Assembly (NCBI RefSeq): GCF_002844195.1
Contig: NZ_PEND01000002.1
Coordinates: forward strand, 434,001-498,000
DNA: 64,000 nucleotides
Reading direction: 5' to 3'
Source: Halegenticoccus soli
GTDB taxonomy: Archaea > Halobacteriota > Halobacteria > Halobacteriales > Haloferacaceae
Below are positions 43,661-50,896 of this stretch, piece by piece. Position 1 is the first letter of the stretch; each line of letters starts with the position of its first letter. Position numbers and translations under genes: made by a program. A model generated the notes under the pieces. The model was not told the DNA's origin. It ran no database searches and saw only the letters and a list, made by a program, of their open reading frames with translations.

Positions 43661-44989
43661 ATGCCGAGCGTCCGCACGTGGGTCGTCCTGGTCGTCGTCG
43701 CCGCGAGCCTCGCCACCGCCGGATACGTCGAGGGGCCGTACCAGCGGACCGCGCCGGACGAGCCCCGCGAGACGGTGCCGGACCGGCGGCTGGTCGAACC
43801 GCGGGACAACGGGAGCCACTTCTGGCCGTACACGAGCAAGCGGCGGTCGATCGACGGCCGGACGCTGGCGATCAACGTGGTGGTCCGCGGCGATCCGGAG
43901 ACGACGCGGCGGGCGCTGACCGAGCGGACGTCCATCGAGTGGAACCGGACGACCGAAAACGAGACGGACGCGACCGCGGGGGCCCACTCCGCCGACGCGG
44001 TCGAGGTCACGGACGACGGCGTCGACTGGGACGACGCGCGCGGCTCGACCCGGTACACCTACGTCGACGTCGACGGGGACGGCGAGGGGCGGTGGCTCGC
44101 GGAGAGCTACCAGCTCCACACCGGCGCGTACCTCGGCTCGCGGTACCACATCCGCGCGTACGCCGACCCGGACGGCGAGTGGACCGCGATGCAGGCCCAC
44201 CAGGAGTACTGGGACTGGTTCAGGCTCCGCCACACCGTCACGGGCGTCCAGCCCGCGGGCCGAGCCGTCGAGTCGGACTTCATCGACGAACCCTACGTGG
44301 CGGACGTCCAGCGGGTGTACCACGGCAAGCGCGGCGGCGGCAGCGACGGCTGGATGACCGTCGTGGAGCTCGCGCTCACGGTCGTCGCGGTCGGGTCGCT
44401 TCGTCCGCGAGCGGGACGGGGTCCCGCTCGCGTGGCCCGGGGGACGCTTCGCGTCCCTCGCTGTCCGCGCCGAGCCGCCGCGGGCTCGATCGAGCGCGTC
44501 CGCCGGGACCTCCCGTCGCCGGCGCGCGTCCGCGGGGAGGTCGTCGCGGCGGTGGCCGAGCACGGCCGCCGGGCGACGCTCTTTCTCGCGCTGGCGGGGC
44601 TGTATCTCGGCGTCCGGGCGGCCGGGATCGCGCTCGAAGGAGCCCTGCCGCGCGTCTCTCCGAAGATATTCGCCGCGTTCCTGTACCCGGTGCTCGCGGT
44701 CGGGACGCCGGTTCTCGCGGCCGGGATCGCGCGCCCGATCGACTCCACCGCCGCGTTCGTCCTGTCGATCGCGGGGCTCGGAACCGCGATCGTCCTCGAC
44801 TTCGGCGCGCTCGGCGTTACGGCGCTTCCCGTGCCGCTCGTCCTGCACCGCGTCGCGCTGCTCGTCTCGCTCGGCCTGATCGCCGCCGGGGCGGCGAAGC
44901 GCGACGCGGGCGAGGGGCGGACGGTCGCGGCGCTCGGCGCGGTCGGCTGGGTCGCGTGCCTGGCGCTCCCGCTGTTCGGCGCGCTGTGA
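43661..44989 (+). CDS. haloarchaeal membrane protein with large extracytoplasmic domain
   Basis: 442 aa from ATG 43661 (MPSVRTWVVLVVVAASLATAGYVEG). One N-terminal helix is followed by a ~200-residue soluble domain beginning LVEPRDNGSHFWPYTSKRRSIDGRTLAINVVV, which contains sequons (NGS, NRT, NET) and therefore probably lies outside. Then come a helix near residue 235 and five or so helices in the last 170 residues. Central motif QYHTGAY..GSRYHIRAYADPD is distinctive but not a family I can name with confidence. Likely surface-exposed; function unknown. Confidence 0.78.
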   Translation: MPSVRTWVVLVVVAASLATAGYVEGPYQRTAPDEPRETVPDRRLVEPRDNGSHFWPYTSKRRSIDGRTLAINVVVRGDPETTRRALTERTSIEWNRTTENETDATAGAHSADAVEVTDDGVDWDDARGSTRYTYVDVDGDGEGRWLAESYQLHTGAYLGSRYHIRAYADPDGEWTAMQAHQEYWDWFRLRHTVTGVQPAGRAVESDFIDEPYVADVQRVYHGKRGGGSDGWMTVVELALTVVAVGSLRPRAGRGPARVARGTLRVPRCPRRAAAGSIERVRRDLPSPARVRGEVVAAVAEHGRRATLFLALAGLYLGVRAAGIALEGALPRVSPKIFAAFLYPVLAVGTPVLAAGIARPIDSTAAFVLSIAGLGTAIVLDFGALGVTALPVPLVLHRVALLVSLGLIAAGAAKRDAGEGRTVAALGAVGWVACLALPLFGAL

Positions 44990-45043: not shown

Positions 45044-46657
45044 TCAGTCCCGTTTGACCCGGAAGATCACGACCCCGTCGTTCGCGAACACCTGCTCGTA
45101 CCTGTCGGAGAGCCGCAGCGCCCGTTCGAGCGAGCCGTACTGGACCTCGTAGTCGCCGCGAATCGTGTATCCTCCCCGGGGGACGTACAGGTAGTCCGGA
45201 TCGGAACCGCTCTCCGCGAGCCACCGGTTCACGCACGACTCGGCGGAGCACGCGGAGATGTTCGTGTAGGCGTCTAATTGATCGTAGTACGCCTCCGAGC
45301 TGACCCACTCGACCCCCCACGGGCCGATCAGGATGGTCCGGTGCGTGATCGCCGGGAACCACTCGGCCGCGTCGCCCATCACGACGAACGTGGCGTCGGG
45401 CCGAGTCTGCGAGGCGGCCCACTCCATCGCCTCCACGTCCTCCTCGTCGACGAACGACGGCGTCTCCGTGCCGACCTCGTCGGTCATGTCGTACGCGAGG
45501 TAGCCGATCCCGGCCGGCGCCGCGACGAGGAGGAACGCGACGAAAACCGGCGCGAACCGCCGCGGCGCGACCGTCCGCGGCAGCCGCCGCCGGCCGAGTT
45601 CGACGGCGGCGGCGACGATGACGATCAACCCGACCAGGTAGGCGAACCGCGACTGTCGGACCGCGAACTCGGCCACGAGGTACCAGAGCGGGAGGAAGAC
45701 GTGCCCGGAGACGAGCAGGTAGACCGCGCCGAGCAGCGGTACGATCGCCCACGGGAAGAGCCCCGAGACGAACTCGTAGAGGCCGCCGCCGATACCGCCG
45801 TGGGTTCCCGACGCCGCGAAGAAGACCGTCGGGCCGAACGAGGAGACGACATGGATCCACCACGGGGCCGCGAGGATCACCGCGCCGACGCCGACGACCG
45901 CGCCCCGCAGGAGGCCGGCGACCGACCGGTCGAGCGTCAGCCACGTGAGCAGGTACGTCAGCACGAAGAACAGCGTGTACGTCGGGTGCGTGAGCACGGT
46001 CAGGAGGAAGAAGCCGAGGGAGGCGACGACCCACCGACGCTCCCCCGACCGGAACATGTGGTAGCCGGTGTAGATGCCGCAGAGCGCGAACAGCACCGCG
46101 GGCGCGCGGACGATGCCCCCGGCCGAGATGTGCCACTTGAGGATCTGGGGGTTCACGGCGATGAGCGTCGCCGCGGCCGTCGCCTGCGCTCGGGAGCCCT
46201 GCAGATCCCGGACGAGGAGGTACACCGGAACGAGGTACGCGATCGTCACGAGCCCCGGCAGGAACCGGCTGTAGGTGAACGGATCGACCCCGGTCAGATC
46301 CGTGATCACCGCCGCGACGTAGAACATGAGCGGCGGGTACGCGAAGGGGACGCCGCGTGCGGTGTAGTAGGGGATCCACTCCGGGAGCGCGTAGCCGTGT
46401 CCGACGATCTCCTCGGCGATGAGCATGTACAGCCCCGCGCCGAATGCGGGGTACTGGTGCGTCGCCAGGTAGAGGAGGTAGACGGCCGTTCCGACGGCGA
46501 GAACGGGCGCGAGCCAGACGGCGTCGGCCGTCCCGAGGAGCGTCTCCTCGTCCCGCTTCGTCGCGGTGGCCGGCCACGCGAACCGCGCCGTCCGCTTCGG
46601 CGTCTCGCTCGCCGCGGTCGACGACTCCTGCCCGGTCGATTCTGTCGAGTCTGTCAT
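45044..46657 (-). CDS. GT-C-like polytopic membrane protein (putative glycosyltransferase)
   Basis: 537 aa from ATG 46655-46657. A ~40-residue Thr/Ser/Lys cytosolic start is followed by about 10-11 hydrophobic helices and a ~130-residue C-terminal soluble domain (EDVEAMEWAASQTRPDATFVVMGDAAEWFP...). This order, with a first outside loop (YPAFGAGLYMLIAEEIVGHGYALPEWIPYY), resembles GT-C/ArnT-like lipid-linked sugar transferases. No clear DxD is seen in loop 1, so catalysis is inferred. It follows the sulfotransferase-like gene by 36 nt on the same strand, so an operon is likely. Confidence 0.8.
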   Translation of the reverse strand: MTDSTESTGQESSTAASETPKRTARFAWPATATKRDEETLLGTADAVWLAPVLAVGTAVYLLYLATHQYPAFGAGLYMLIAEEIVGHGYALPEWIPYYTARGVPFAYPPLMFYVAAVITDLTGVDPFTYSRFLPGLVTIAYLVPVYLLVRDLQGSRAQATAAATLIAVNPQILKWHISAGGIVRAPAVLFALCGIYTGYHMFRSGERRWVVASLGFFLLTVLTHPTYTLFFVLTYLLTWLTLDRSVAGLLRGAVVGVGAVILAAPWWIHVVSSFGPTVFFAASGTHGGIGGGLYEFVSGLFPWAIVPLLGAVYLLVSGHVFLPLWYLVAEFAVRQSRFAYLVGLIVIVAAAVELGRRRLPRTVAPRRFAPVFVAFLLVAAPAGIGYLAYDMTDEVGTETPSFVDEEDVEAMEWAASQTRPDATFVVMGDAAEWFPAITHRTILIGPWGVEWVSSEAYYDQLDAYTNISACSAESCVNRWLAESGSDPDYLYVPRGGYTIRGDYEVQYGSLERALRLSDRYEQVFANDGVVIFRVKRD

Positions 46658-46693: not shown

Positions 46694-48100
46694 CTACTTT
46701 CTCCGCAGTTGCAGCGGCGATCGAACGGCGACGGCGAGCTTCCTCCGACGCCACTCGGTGACGGCCAGGGTCGCGCTTCCGACGACGAACGTGAACAGCG
46801 CGACGATCTCGAGCGCGCCCATCCAGCGCGGCAGGGCGTAGGCGATCGCGTTCACGACCTTCGGGGGAACCGCGGCTTCGATCCGGAGCCACGCGGAGCC
46901 CACCGCGCCGACGTCGCTCCGCTCGTCGGCGCGCTCCGAGGGCAGGTCCAGCGACTTCGCGCTGGGGCCCCCGGCGGATTCGTCGCCCGTGCCGAGGCGC
47001 TCCGCCTCGTACGGGAAGCCGACGTCGGCGCTCCAGACGACCTCGCCCCGCCGGTCGACTTCGAGCACCCTGTCGCCGTTCGAGTCGGTCATGAGCGTGT
47101 GGCCGTTCGGGAGGCGGTCGGCGTCGCGGACCCACTGCATCCGCGGGTCGCTCCACTCCCACGTCTTCACCCACTCGCCGTTCTCGCGCTGGTACTCGAC
47201 AACGCGGCTGTTCTCGCTGTCGGCGACGAGGACTGCCGGGCCGCCCTCCTCCGGCGGGATGTAATCGGGGTTGTGCTGCTCGTACAGCGTCTCGTGGTCG
47301 TCGTCCTCGCCGAGCGTCCACTCCTCCATCAATCCCCGTTCGAGGTCGATGAAGACGACGCTGTCCTGGTTCCTGAGGCTCGCCATGACGACCGCTCGCC
47401 CGTCGATCTCGACGTACTCGACGTCGTTGACGTGGGTCCAGTCCTCGGGGTACGGACCGCCGCTCTCGGTCGAATAGTCCGCCTGCGCGTCCCAGGACCA
47501 CTCGATCAGTTCGGTCGTCGTGTTGACGATGAACACGCGGTCCTGGTCGATGTCCGCGACGAGGTACCGGTGTTCGTCGATCCGATCCCCGTCGTGCCAG
47601 CGCGTCGAGTGCTTGTCGGGCGTGATCCGCGCGTAGACGTCGGTCACCTCGCCCGTCGTGAGGTTGACCCGCTCGATCCCGTTGCGCGTACAGACGGTGG
47701 ACGCGTTGCAGTCCTCCTCGCTCAGGTGGTCCGCGTAGAGGTACTCGACGGTCGCTCTCGTCCTCGGGACGGGATCCACGTCCCAGTACCGGGTGTGGGA
47801 GTTGTTGTAGTAGTAGACGCTCCCGTCGGGAGCGAACGCGACGAGTTCGGCCTGCGCCCGCGGGCCGGAGCCGTCGTTGGAGACGAACGCGTTCGAGTCG
47901 GTGCCGACGACGGTGATGTTCTCGCGGGGCTCGGCGACGGGACTCCTGTCGCCGGTTCTGAACGCCTCTTCGGCCGATTGATCGCCCTGGATCTGCTGTC
48001 CGGCCAGCACCTCGCCGGTGACGTAGCCGGTGAGGAGTACCAGCGCTGACAGGCAGACCAGGCTCACGAGGATCGACCGCTTCACTCGCCGCGGCGACAT
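46694..48100 (-). CDS. membrane-anchored arylsulfotransferase-like beta-propeller
   Basis: 468 aa from ATG 48098-48100 (MSPRRVKRSILVSLVCLSALVLLTG). N-terminal helix, then ~370 residues of propeller blades (GTDSNAFVSNDG..AELVAFAPDGSVYYYNNSHTRYWDVDPVP; VYARITPDKHSTRWHDGDRIDEHRYLVADIDQDRVFIVN; DADRLPNGHTLMTDSNGDRVLEVDRRGEVVWS), and a C-terminal helix (GALEIVALFTFVVGSATLAV) before a basic tail. The pattern matches archaeal arylsulfotransferase-family propellers. Two flanking helices place the propeller outside the membrane. Sulfation or other glycan modification is an inference. First gene of the two-gene unit with the GT-C-like protein. Confidence 0.8.
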   Translation of the reverse strand: MSPRRVKRSILVSLVCLSALVLLTGYVTGEVLAGQQIQGDQSAEEAFRTGDRSPVAEPRENITVVGTDSNAFVSNDGSGPRAQAELVAFAPDGSVYYYNNSHTRYWDVDPVPRTRATVEYLYADHLSEEDCNASTVCTRNGIERVNLTTGEVTDVYARITPDKHSTRWHDGDRIDEHRYLVADIDQDRVFIVNTTTELIEWSWDAQADYSTESGGPYPEDWTHVNDVEYVEIDGRAVVMASLRNQDSVVFIDLERGLMEEWTLGEDDDHETLYEQHNPDYIPPEEGGPAVLVADSENSRVVEYQRENGEWVKTWEWSDPRMQWVRDADRLPNGHTLMTDSNGDRVLEVDRRGEVVWSADVGFPYEAERLGTGDESAGGPSAKSLDLPSERADERSDVGAVGSAWLRIEAAVPPKVVNAIAYALPRWMGALEIVALFTFVVGSATLAVTEWRRRKLAVAVRSPLQLRRK

Positions 48101-48260: not shown

Positions 48261-50081
48261 ATGTCCTCGACCGACGGTCGAAGCGAACTCCGAGGGACGC
48301 GGAGAGCGGTGCTCGCCAGCGTCGCTGCCGCGTCGGCCGCCGGGACGTCCGGGTGCGTAAAGCGCCTCCGGAACGTCGTCGGGCGCGAGCCCTCGCGGCA
48401 GATCTCGCTCGAAATCAAGACCGTGCCGGCGGACAGCGACCCGTACGCCAGCCGGATCGCCCGCCACCTCGCGGAGAACCTGGAGACGGCGGGCGTCGCC
48501 GCCCGCGTCGTGCCGGTCGAGGTCGAAGAGCTCTACCGGCAGGTGCTCATCAACCAGCAGTTCGACCTGTACGTCGGCCAGTACCCCGAGGCGCGTCACC
48601 TCGACCCGGATTCGCTGTACGGCCTGTTGCACTCGCGGTTCAGCTCCGAATCGGGGTGGCAGAACCCGTTCGGGTACACCAACCTCACCGTCGACGAACT
48701 GCTCGAAGAACAGCGAACCACCGCCGGGAAGGCGCGCCGCGAGGCGGCGGCGGAGTTACAGCGGACGGTCGCACAGACGGTTCCGTTCCTCACGGTGGCG
48801 TTTCCCGACGTGCTCTGCGCCGTCCGGACCGACCGCTTCACCAAGTGGCGGACGTTCGGTCCGAACTCGGCGGTCGGGCTACTGTCGCTCGAACGCCTGC
48901 CCGGCGCGGACTTCTCCTCCGACTTCGCGTCCGACGGCGCGGAACTGCGGCTCGCGACGACCGACCCCCGGATCACCGAGAACAGAAACCCGATCGCCGC
49001 CGAGTTCCGCCGGCTCGGGACGTTCATCGACCTGCTCTACGACTCGCTCTGTCGCCGGTACAGCGGGACCGTCAACCCGTGGCTCGCGGAGACGGTGACC
49101 TGGGCGACGGACGGCCGGGCCCCGACGGTCAACGTCCGGCTCCGCGACGGGCTCTCGTGGCACGACGGGACCCCTCTCACGGCCGACGACGTCGCGTTCA
49201 CCTACGCGTTCCTGGCCGACACGACGCTCGGCGCGGACGAGGGTTCCATTCCCGCACCGCGCTTCCGCGGCCGCGTCTCGCTCGTCGACAACGTGTCCGT
49301 CACCGACGACCGGACCGTCCGGATTCGGTTCTTACCCGGGTCCGAGGCGGTCGCCGACCGCGCCCTGACGATCCCGCTGCTCCCCGAGCACGTCTGGTCG
49401 GAGAAGACGGGGAAAGCCAGCATCGCGGGGATCGAAGTCAACGGCGAGACCACCGAGGCGCTGATCTGGAACAATCCGAACCCCGTGGGGAGCGGCCCGT
49501 TCCGGTTCGAACGGAGCAAGCCGGACGAGTCGCTCGTCCTCTCGCTCTTCGACGACCACTTCCTCGTCCGCGACCGGGGCGGCGAGGATCCGACCGGCCT
49601 CCCCGCGCGGCCGGCGTTCGATCGCCTCCGCGTGCAGGTCGTTTCGTCGGACGTGTCCGCGGTCGAACTGGTCTCGAACGACGACGCCGACGCGACGATC
49701 TCCAACCTCAGCGCGGAGACGGTGCCCCGGATCGCGCGGTCGCCCGACCTCGATCTGATCGCCCACCGGTCGCAGTCGTTCTACCACGTCGGCTTCAACG
49801 CGCGGCAGGCGCCGCTTTCCAACCCCCGGTTCCGCCACACGGTCGCACGGCTCGTCGACAAGTCGTTCCTCGTCCGGGACGTGTTCGGCTGGTACGCCGC
49901 GCCGGCGGCGAGCCCCCTCGCGGAGACCCGGTGGCTCCCCGAGGACCTCGCGTGGGCCGGCGCCGATCCCGTGACGCCCTTCCTCGGCGAGGCCGGGGAG
50001 GTCTCGCCCGAGCGGGCCCGCTCGGCGTTTCGCGAAGCCGGCTACCAGTACAGCGAGAACGGCAAACTCCTCACACGCTGA
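48261..50081 (+). CDS. SBP_bac_5-type solute-binding lipoprotein with permuted domain order
   Basis: 606 aa from ATG 48261 (MSSTDGRSELRGTRRAVLAS). Tat-like RGTRR and lipobox SGC (Cys32) give a lipidated extracellular protein. Residues ~228-606 contain the usual beginning and middle of a dipeptide/nickel-type binding protein (LRLATTDP, FIDLLYDSLCRR, RLRDGLSWHDGTPLTADDVAFTYAFL, NPNPVGSGPFRFERSK, FYHVGFNARQAPLSNPRFRHTVARLVDK). They stop at AFREAGYQYSENGKLLTR, where the fold normally continues. The missing end (SLEIKTVPADSDPYASRIARHLAENL, LINQQFDLYVGQYPE, GYTNLTVDELLEEQR, FLTVAFPDVLCAVR) is at residues 48-210 instead. This is a circular permutation. No permease or ATPase genes adjoin; a PAP2 gene follows after 11 nt. 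Confidence 0.88.
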   Translation: MSSTDGRSELRGTRRAVLASVAAASAAGTSGCVKRLRNVVGREPSRQISLEIKTVPADSDPYASRIARHLAENLETAGVAARVVPVEVEELYRQVLINQQFDLYVGQYPEARHLDPDSLYGLLHSRFSSESGWQNPFGYTNLTVDELLEEQRTTAGKARREAAAELQRTVAQTVPFLTVAFPDVLCAVRTDRFTKWRTFGPNSAVGLLSLERLPGADFSSDFASDGAELRLATTDPRITENRNPIAAEFRRLGTFIDLLYDSLCRRYSGTVNPWLAETVTWATDGRAPTVNVRLRDGLSWHDGTPLTADDVAFTYAFLADTTLGADEGSIPAPRFRGRVSLVDNVSVTDDRTVRIRFLPGSEAVADRALTIPLLPEHVWSEKTGKASIAGIEVNGETTEALIWNNPNPVGSGPFRFERSKPDESLVLSLFDDHFLVRDRGGEDPTGLPARPAFDRLRVQVVSSDVSAVELVSNDDADATISNLSAETVPRIARSPDLDLIAHRSQSFYHVGFNARQAPLSNPRFRHTVARLVDKSFLVRDVFGWYAAPAASPLAETRWLPEDLAWAGADPVTPFLGEAGEVSPERARSAFREAGYQYSENGKLLTR

Positions 50082-50092
50082 TCTCCGTCGCC

Positions 50093-50896
50093 ATGAGTTT
50101 CCTCACGATACTCGCGGAAGTCGTCGCGGTGGTGGCCGCGATGGTCGCCCTGGCCGCGGTCGGAATCGTCGGCGCGGACCGGCTTCGGCGGCTCCGCCGG
50201 ACCGCCCGCCTCCGCCTGCGCGCCGTCGCGCCGCAACTCGCCGTCCTCGCGGTCGTCCTGCTCGTCAACAGCGCCATCAGGGACGTGGTGCCGGAGTTCT
50301 CCTGGATCATCGGCTGGAACATCACGGGGTACATCTTCGCCCTCGAGGGGACGTTCGTCGCGTTCGTCCAGTCGTTCGCCTCCCCGCCGCTGACCGCCTA
50401 CTTCTCGTTCGTCTACGTCTACGGGTACGTGTTCCTCCTCGTGTTCCCGCTCCTCGCGTACGCCGCGCTCGACGACGCCCGCCCGCTCCGGGAGCTCGTC
50501 ATCGCGTACAGCCTCAACTACGGGCTCGGCCTGCTCTGTTACGTCCTGTTCATCGCCTACGGCCCGCGGAACCTGCTGTCCGACCTCGTCGAGTCGCTCC
50601 TGTACACGACGTACCCGCGCTACCAGCTGTTGACGAGCCGCGTGAACACCAACACGAACGTGTTCCCGTCGCTCCACACCTCGCTGTCGATCACGGTCGC
50701 GATGCTGGCGTGGCTCTCGCGCGATCAGTATCCGAAGTGGACCGCGATCGCGACGTTCGGGGCGCTGAGCGTGGTGATCGCGACGATGTACCTCGGGATC
50801 CACTGGGCGACCGACGTGCTCGCGGGGCTCCTGCTGAGCGCGGCCAGCGTCGCCCTCGCCAGGCGGTGGGTCGGGGACGGGAGCTGGCGGTCCTGA
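50093..50896 (+). CDS. PAP2-superfamily membrane phosphatase / phosphotransferase
   Basis: 267 aa from ATG 50093 (MSFLTILAEVVAVVAAMVAL), six or seven hydrophobic helices. The catalytic block NVFPSLHTSLSITVAM with FPSLHTS (PAP2 motif 2) and GIHWATDVLAG (motif 3 His...Asp) are present; the first motif is weaker (YTTYPRYQ). It resembles archaeal inositol-phosphoceramide-synthase-like (Aur1/Ipt1) PAP2 proteins. It acts on phospholipid or isoprenoid phosphates in the membrane. Only 11 nt after the binding-protein gene, so co-transcription is likely. Confidence 0.88.
   Translation: MSFLTILAEVVAVVAAMVALAAVGIVGADRLRRLRRTARLRLRAVAPQLAVLAVVLLVNSAIRDVVPEFSWIIGWNITGYIFALEGTFVAFVQSFASPPLTAYFSFVYVYGYVFLLVFPLLAYAALDDARPLRELVIAYSLNYGLGLLCYVLFIAYGPRNLLSDLVESLLYTTYPRYQLLTSRVNTNTNVFPSLHTSLSITVAMLAWLSRDQYPKWTAIATFGALSVVIATMYLGIHWATDVLAGLLLSAASVALARRWVGDGSWRS

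Follow-up and report, generated by a model that had tools for sequence, protein, structure and literature searches.

Background

The one class of solute-binding proteins (SBPs) in which natural permutation was previously known is a sugar-binding one. TpMglB-2 (Tp0684), from Treponema pallidum, is a naturally permuted ligand-binding protein, and a "Cluster Bc" has been proposed for such proteins (PMC4990184). For the SBPs of the OppA/DppA class, or those of the haloarchaea, we found no described case of permutation in the literature open to us without subscription, and sequence searches of the PDB returned no solved permuted family-5 SBP among the matches listed. The analysis reported here indicates that permutation in the OppA/DppA class appears to be common among haloarchaea, where it is masked by profile-based annotation, the named relatives that we found being all labelled "ABC transporter substrate-binding protein". 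The gene from which the analysis began encodes a predicted lipoprotein and lies in a stretch of 64,000 nucleotides from the haloarchaeon Halegenticoccus soli (positions 434,001 to 498,000 of contig NZ_PEND01000002.1), which is referred to below as the window.

The gene and its product

The features of the gene, of its product and of the neighbouring genes are collected in Table 1. An alternative start codon of the SBP gene, a TTG located further 5', would give a product of 648 aa. Among 86 relatives, the signal-peptide residues R14, R15, G31 and C32 are each at least 95% conserved, and the alignment of these relatives also indicates that the core motifs of the SBP_bac_5 fold have been retained in the family. 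The open reading frame, the Tat-type signal, the lipobox and the fold segments on which the initial annotation had drawn are all present as it described them. The linker that joins the old C and N termini is about 17 residues long in the window's SBP, close to the roughly 15 residues first proposed, and ranges from 14 to 77 residues across the family, as measured by the counted span.

Table 1. Location of the permuted SBP gene, the parts of its product and the adjoining genes within the window
Feature	Position	Strand	Remarks
Permuted SBP_bac_5 lipoprotein gene	48261..50081	+	606 aa, ATG start
Tat-type signal peptide and lipobox, residues 1-32	48261..48356	+	RR14-15, GC31-32, from sequence
Part A, residues 46-212	48396..48896	+	Usual C-terminal portion of the fold, with the remainder of the second lobe plus the closing strand
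Linker between old C and N termini, residues 211-227	48891..48941	+	Lower pLDDT in the AlphaFold2 model
Part B, residues 228-606	48942..50078	+	Usual N-terminal part of the fold
PAP2-superfamily membrane enzyme	50093..50896	+	267 aa; PF14378 E=2.6e-14, PF01569 E=3.8e-13
Arylsulfotransferase-like gene (ASST)	46694..48100	-	Divergent from the SBP gene; PF05935, PF14269; in 21/59 loci
Membrane protein, PTPS_related	45044..46657	-	PF10131; in 27/59 loci
Membrane protein X	43661..44989	+	Neighbour in 21/59 loci, often immediately 5' of the SBP gene on the same strand

A circular permutant of the OppA/DppA-type fold

By sequence, the protein is a member of the SBP_bac_5 family (PF00496; 156.8 bits as compared to a curated cut-off of 32.4, E=1.1e-45), and the family profile aligns to residues 271-602 over profile positions 2-285. 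The native sequence gave no full-length match to PF00496 in the canonical order, but instead two alignments that are out of order with one another. The same pattern is seen against the PDB, where phmmer matched residues 258-553 of the query to residues 37-296 of 6i3g and residues 72-189 of the query to residues 352-464 of the same structure. When compared with ordinary SBPs by hhalign, the native sequence likewise gave two alignments (scores 419 and 122, covering template positions 2-319 and 324-467), whereas an in silico swap of the two halves brought these together into a single alignment with a score of 534 that covers the whole ordinary fold (template positions 2-467 of 473). Separate profiles for part A (residues 46-212) and part B (residues 226-604) were built from the 86 relatives. 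In ordinary SBPs the part A profile matches after that of part B, as in a Cellulosimicrobium protein (L071; part B at 81-395, part A at 421-562), and in the window's family it matches ahead of part B, the reverse order. A profile of the whole permuted protein, when run against ordinary genes, gave abutting matches in swapped order (in G218:C13, query 217-548 with E 5e-89, then query 46-211 with E 1e-33).

The swapped order is far beyond what chance would produce, and the window's SBP is truly a circularly permuted form of the OppA/DppA-type fold: its halves are homologous to the halves of one fold, their order is swapped, the junctions abut and a linker connects the old termini. The permutation proposed in the initial annotation is thus borne out by the order of the profile matches and by the hhalign swap. 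The cut falls within the second lobe, in the loop after the "...AR.AF..AGY" helix. In the alignment with OppA, profile positions 256-577 correspond to residues 41-354 of 1b05, which places the cut near OppA residue 355-360, a region that, by the domain limits of OppA, would lie within the second lobe. Because the cut is in the second lobe and the new N terminus retains the Tat signal and the lipobox, the predicted lipid anchor would have shifted from the first lobe to the second, in agreement with the earlier suggestion that the lipidated Cys32 occupies a different place on the fold.

Structure prediction with AlphaFold2, for which 46 relatives were used, gave one compact protein (pLDDT 87.9, pTM 0.85), and the model points to an OppA-like fold for the window's SBP. 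Part A was poorly predicted when submitted alone (pLDDT 66.6, pTM 0.56), with loss of the closing strand at residues 176-189, as compared to pLDDT values of about 82-98 for its blocks inside the model of the whole protein; the models therefore argue that residues 48-210 do not form an independent domain, a reading that we have discarded. The top Foldseek matches for the whole model are all family-5 SBPs, matched over only about 390 columns with TM scores of 0.4-0.5, a partial coverage that is expected when an aligner that follows sequence order is applied to a permutant. Family-5 SBPs also ranked first when part A was used alone, with a weak E value of about 1e-3.

Distribution and origins of the permuted order

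The same swapped order, at full or near-full length, is found in about 58 haloarchaeal loci, and the permuted-order profile gave single, near-whole-protein matches in at least 38 genomes of the Halobacteriales, out of a phylum-wide sample of 295 genomes, so that the arrangement is widespread in this order of haloarchaea. Among the matches listed, most genomes outside the Halobacteriales are represented by the part B match only. The genome of H. soli itself encodes a second, distant SBP with the same permuted order (L007 / L103:11498-13312, minus strand, on G000:C4), which heads a complete DppB-DppC-DppD-DppF operon. Permuted SBPs also adjoin DppBCDF-type genes in other haloarchaea (L130-L134), in the Archaeoglobaceae (L126, L127) and on plasmids of the alphaproteobacteria Ketogulonicigenium and Nitratireductor. 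Two of these loci have features of their own. The permuted SBP at L126:5733-7496 (minus strand) carries a C-terminal PGF...TM...RRRR tail that resembles a PGF-CTERM sorting signal, and the permuted SBP operon of Ketogulonicigenium vulgare (L136:39-13323) is surrounded by hydantoinase and oxoprolinase genes; a lactam or peptide-like ligand is hinted at for this transport-linked SBP.

In the genus Archaeoglobus, permuted and ordinary forms of what is recognizably the same protein can be compared directly, as the permuted proteins of three genomes (G150, G141 and G194) match ordinary same-genus orthologs in three others (G122, G299 and G136). In the comparison with G122, residues 49-211 of the permuted protein correspond to residues 363-525 of the ordinary one (83%) and residues 215-539 to residues 39-363 (86%), and the two spans are separated by one clean cut, at Glu363. 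The permuted loci of this genus (L127, L141, L154, L164, L165, L169) adjoin DppBCDF, and the unpermuted orthologs (L155-L157, L166-L168), which are 83-86% identical, have different gene neighbourhoods. The origin of the permuted form through the fusion of two truncated SBP genes, the C-terminal piece of one parent having been joined to the N-terminal piece of another, appears very improbable in view of this comparison, since both Archaeoglobus halves match the same ordinary ortholog; the two parts also abut closely within the fold in the window's family, although for the old haloarchaeal event the parent is no longer recognizable, which leaves some room for such a fusion there.

In trees of the de-permuted sequences, the three Archaeoglobus permuted proteins form a clade (100*) that is nested with the ordinary orthologs in a starred group (99*), apart from the haloarchaeal groups. 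To judge from these sequences, the Archaeoglobus permutation is an independent and recent event at the same loop. Grouping the other permuted proteins into a single clade is also rejected by an AU test (p 0.001), a result that is weakened by the long branch of L007. A single origin for all of the permuted forms is disfavoured both by this test and by the nesting of the Archaeoglobus group among ordinary orthologs, and we claim two or more origins of permutation at the same loop, a number that we limit in this way because the long-branch L007 is involved in the AU test. Cuts at other sites exist as well. A second site, inside part A, is found in proteins of about 710 aa from several genomes of the Archaeoglobaceae (L159, L160, L161, L173:6807-8930 and L174:5828-7945), and a third, inside part B, in two genomes sampled with the Actinomycetota (L162:4581-6341 and L163:5092-6891); the genes of both kinds adjoin DppBCDF. 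Since the Archaeoglobus event is nearly fresh, with unpermuted congeners that are 83-86% identical, the mechanism of permutation and its effect on fitness are open to direct experimental test.

The PAP2 partner and the possible function of the window's clade

The window's SBP belongs to a clade that forms one group in the trees (100* SH-aLRT) and that is distinguished by its gene neighbourhood. A PAP2 gene is present in 57 of 59 related loci. The SBP gene is followed by the PAP2 gene in 61 of 71 instances, with a gap of no more than 30 bp in 51 of the pairs and an overlap in 23; the SBP genes that lack a following PAP2 gene are nine second copies in Natrinema-type arrays and the gene of L038. 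Tandem SBP-PAP2-SBP(-PAP2) arrays occur in Natrinema, Natronococcus and their relatives (L040-L042, L046-L049, L051, L053-L055, L060, L070, L172). The partner is a member of the PAP2 superfamily, with PF14378 and PF01569 matches above cut-off and catalytic motifs that are conserved across 62 sequences (YGPRN, FPSLH and STMYLGIHW..DV), and is annotated on named plasmids as "phosphatase PAP2 family protein" or "inositol phosphorylceramide synthase". An unbiased survey of neighbours found only PAP2, the GT gene, ASST and gene X to be common. The PF10131 membrane protein is probably a GT-C-type glycosyltransferase. Membrane protein X has no Pfam match, and an LssY_C identity that had been considered for it was dropped for want of Pfam support.

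Genes for DppB and DppC were found in none of the 59 related loci, with flanks of up to 6 kb, and distant ABC ATPases in only six, so that the co-located permease and ATPase genes of an ABC importer are absent from the window's clade, as had been noted for the gene itself. The initial annotation had implied a link between permutation and the loss of transport, and here it fails. Many of the permuted SBPs outside the window's clade occupy complete DppBCDF operons, among them SBPs with the same cut, one of these in the same genome, and permutation therefore does not entail transport loss and is ruled out as its cause; permutation and transport are compatible. A non-transport role for the window's SBP is nevertheless the reading that we favour from the gene content of these loci, and it is strengthened by the coupling of the clade to a PAP2 gene.

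An importer could still be served from a distance. The SBP might hand its ligand to a DppBCDF-type importer whose genes lie elsewhere in the genome, with the PAP2 enzyme processing the same nutrient extracellularly, for example by dephosphorylation prior to uptake. SBPs that lack an operon of their own can serve transporters coded elsewhere, the genome of H. soli has at least two Dpp-type operons outside this locus, the core of the fold is conserved and same-cut permuted SBPs are found within full ABC operons. We nonetheless consider such an arrangement unlikely, given the constancy of PAP2 as the partner, the lack of a permease in every one of the 59 loci and the position of the clade on a long branch, distant from the transport-linked permutants. 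Close to the view of the initial annotation, which had suggested that the protein may be a sensor or scaffold, is a role in sensing, in which the ligand-bound SBP would regulate PAP2 or another membrane signalling protein without handing over its ligand. The tight pairing of the SBP and PAP2 genes and the absence of a transporter from the loci are consistent with this, and stimulation of membrane receptors by SBPs has been described (PMC9602780); the survey, however, found no recurrent kinase, chemoreceptor or cyclase neighbour, and we regard a sensor as quite improbable.

The possibility to which we would give an even chance, on the basis of gene association, is that the SBP takes part, together with PAP2 and at the outer face of the membrane, in the metabolism of lipids or glycans of the cell surface. 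The clade may have arisen from a permuted, transport-linked ancestor, as transport-linked permutants persist in haloarchaea and alphaproteobacteria, although the region of the tree that bears on this descent is weakly supported, and it may then have been co-opted to serve the PAP2 enzyme as its binding subunit on the outer face. The SBP would be exported by the Tat pathway and anchored at the outer face via its second lobe; its cleft would bind a putative solute or lipid-linked substrate, and the SBP would offer this ligand to the PAP2 active site on the outer face of the membrane, or control that site. The cell-surface lipid or glycan pathway in which the pair is placed may often include the arylsulfotransferase-like and GT-like proteins; counting against the proposal, none of ASST, GT and X is found in as many as half of the 59 loci, and some of the SBP genes have no PAP2 gene behind them. 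The pairing of the SBP and PAP2 genes is not proof of a complex. Taken as a whole, the proposal that SBP_bac_5 proteins have been permuted repeatedly and independently (with three or more cut sites and, at one of these, at least two origins), and that one haloarchaeal lineage left ABC transport altogether and now provides a PAP2 lipid-phosphate enzyme with its extracellular subunit for binding, forming an undescribed two-component system, is offered tentatively, as somewhat less probable than its opposite. The loss of the transporter and the tie to PAP2 in this clade suggest that the binding fold has been put to a new purpose on the surface of archaeal cells.

Comparison with known systems

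We found no earlier description of a PAP2 protein paired with a solute-binding lipoprotein. The window's partner shares the PAP2 motifs of the PAP2_3 family (PF14378), of which one relative is annotated as an inositol phosphorylceramide synthase. TpMglB-2 resembles the window's SBP in being a naturally permuted, membrane-tethered solute-binding lipoprotein, but it has the Type I / cluster B sugar-binding fold, it is cut at a different site, with strands of the N lobe having moved to the C terminus, and its role as an ABC receptor has likely been retained; all of the structural and sequence matches listed for the window's SBP are family-5 SBPs and do not place it with this fold or with Cluster Bc. 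The permuted Dpp-type SBPs (L007/L103, L126, L127, L130-L134, L136, L137) are of the same family and are swapped at the same loop, and differ in lying in or beside DppBCDF, in lacking PAP2 and in their identity to the window's SBP of roughly 20-30%. With OppA, DppA and NikA (Pfam SBP_bac_5, cluster C), the window's SBP has in common the sequence family, the predicted fold, the lipobox signal and the core motifs; it is set apart from them by its swapped halves, by an anchor predicted to be on the other lobe and by a PAP2 enzyme in place of the ABC partner.
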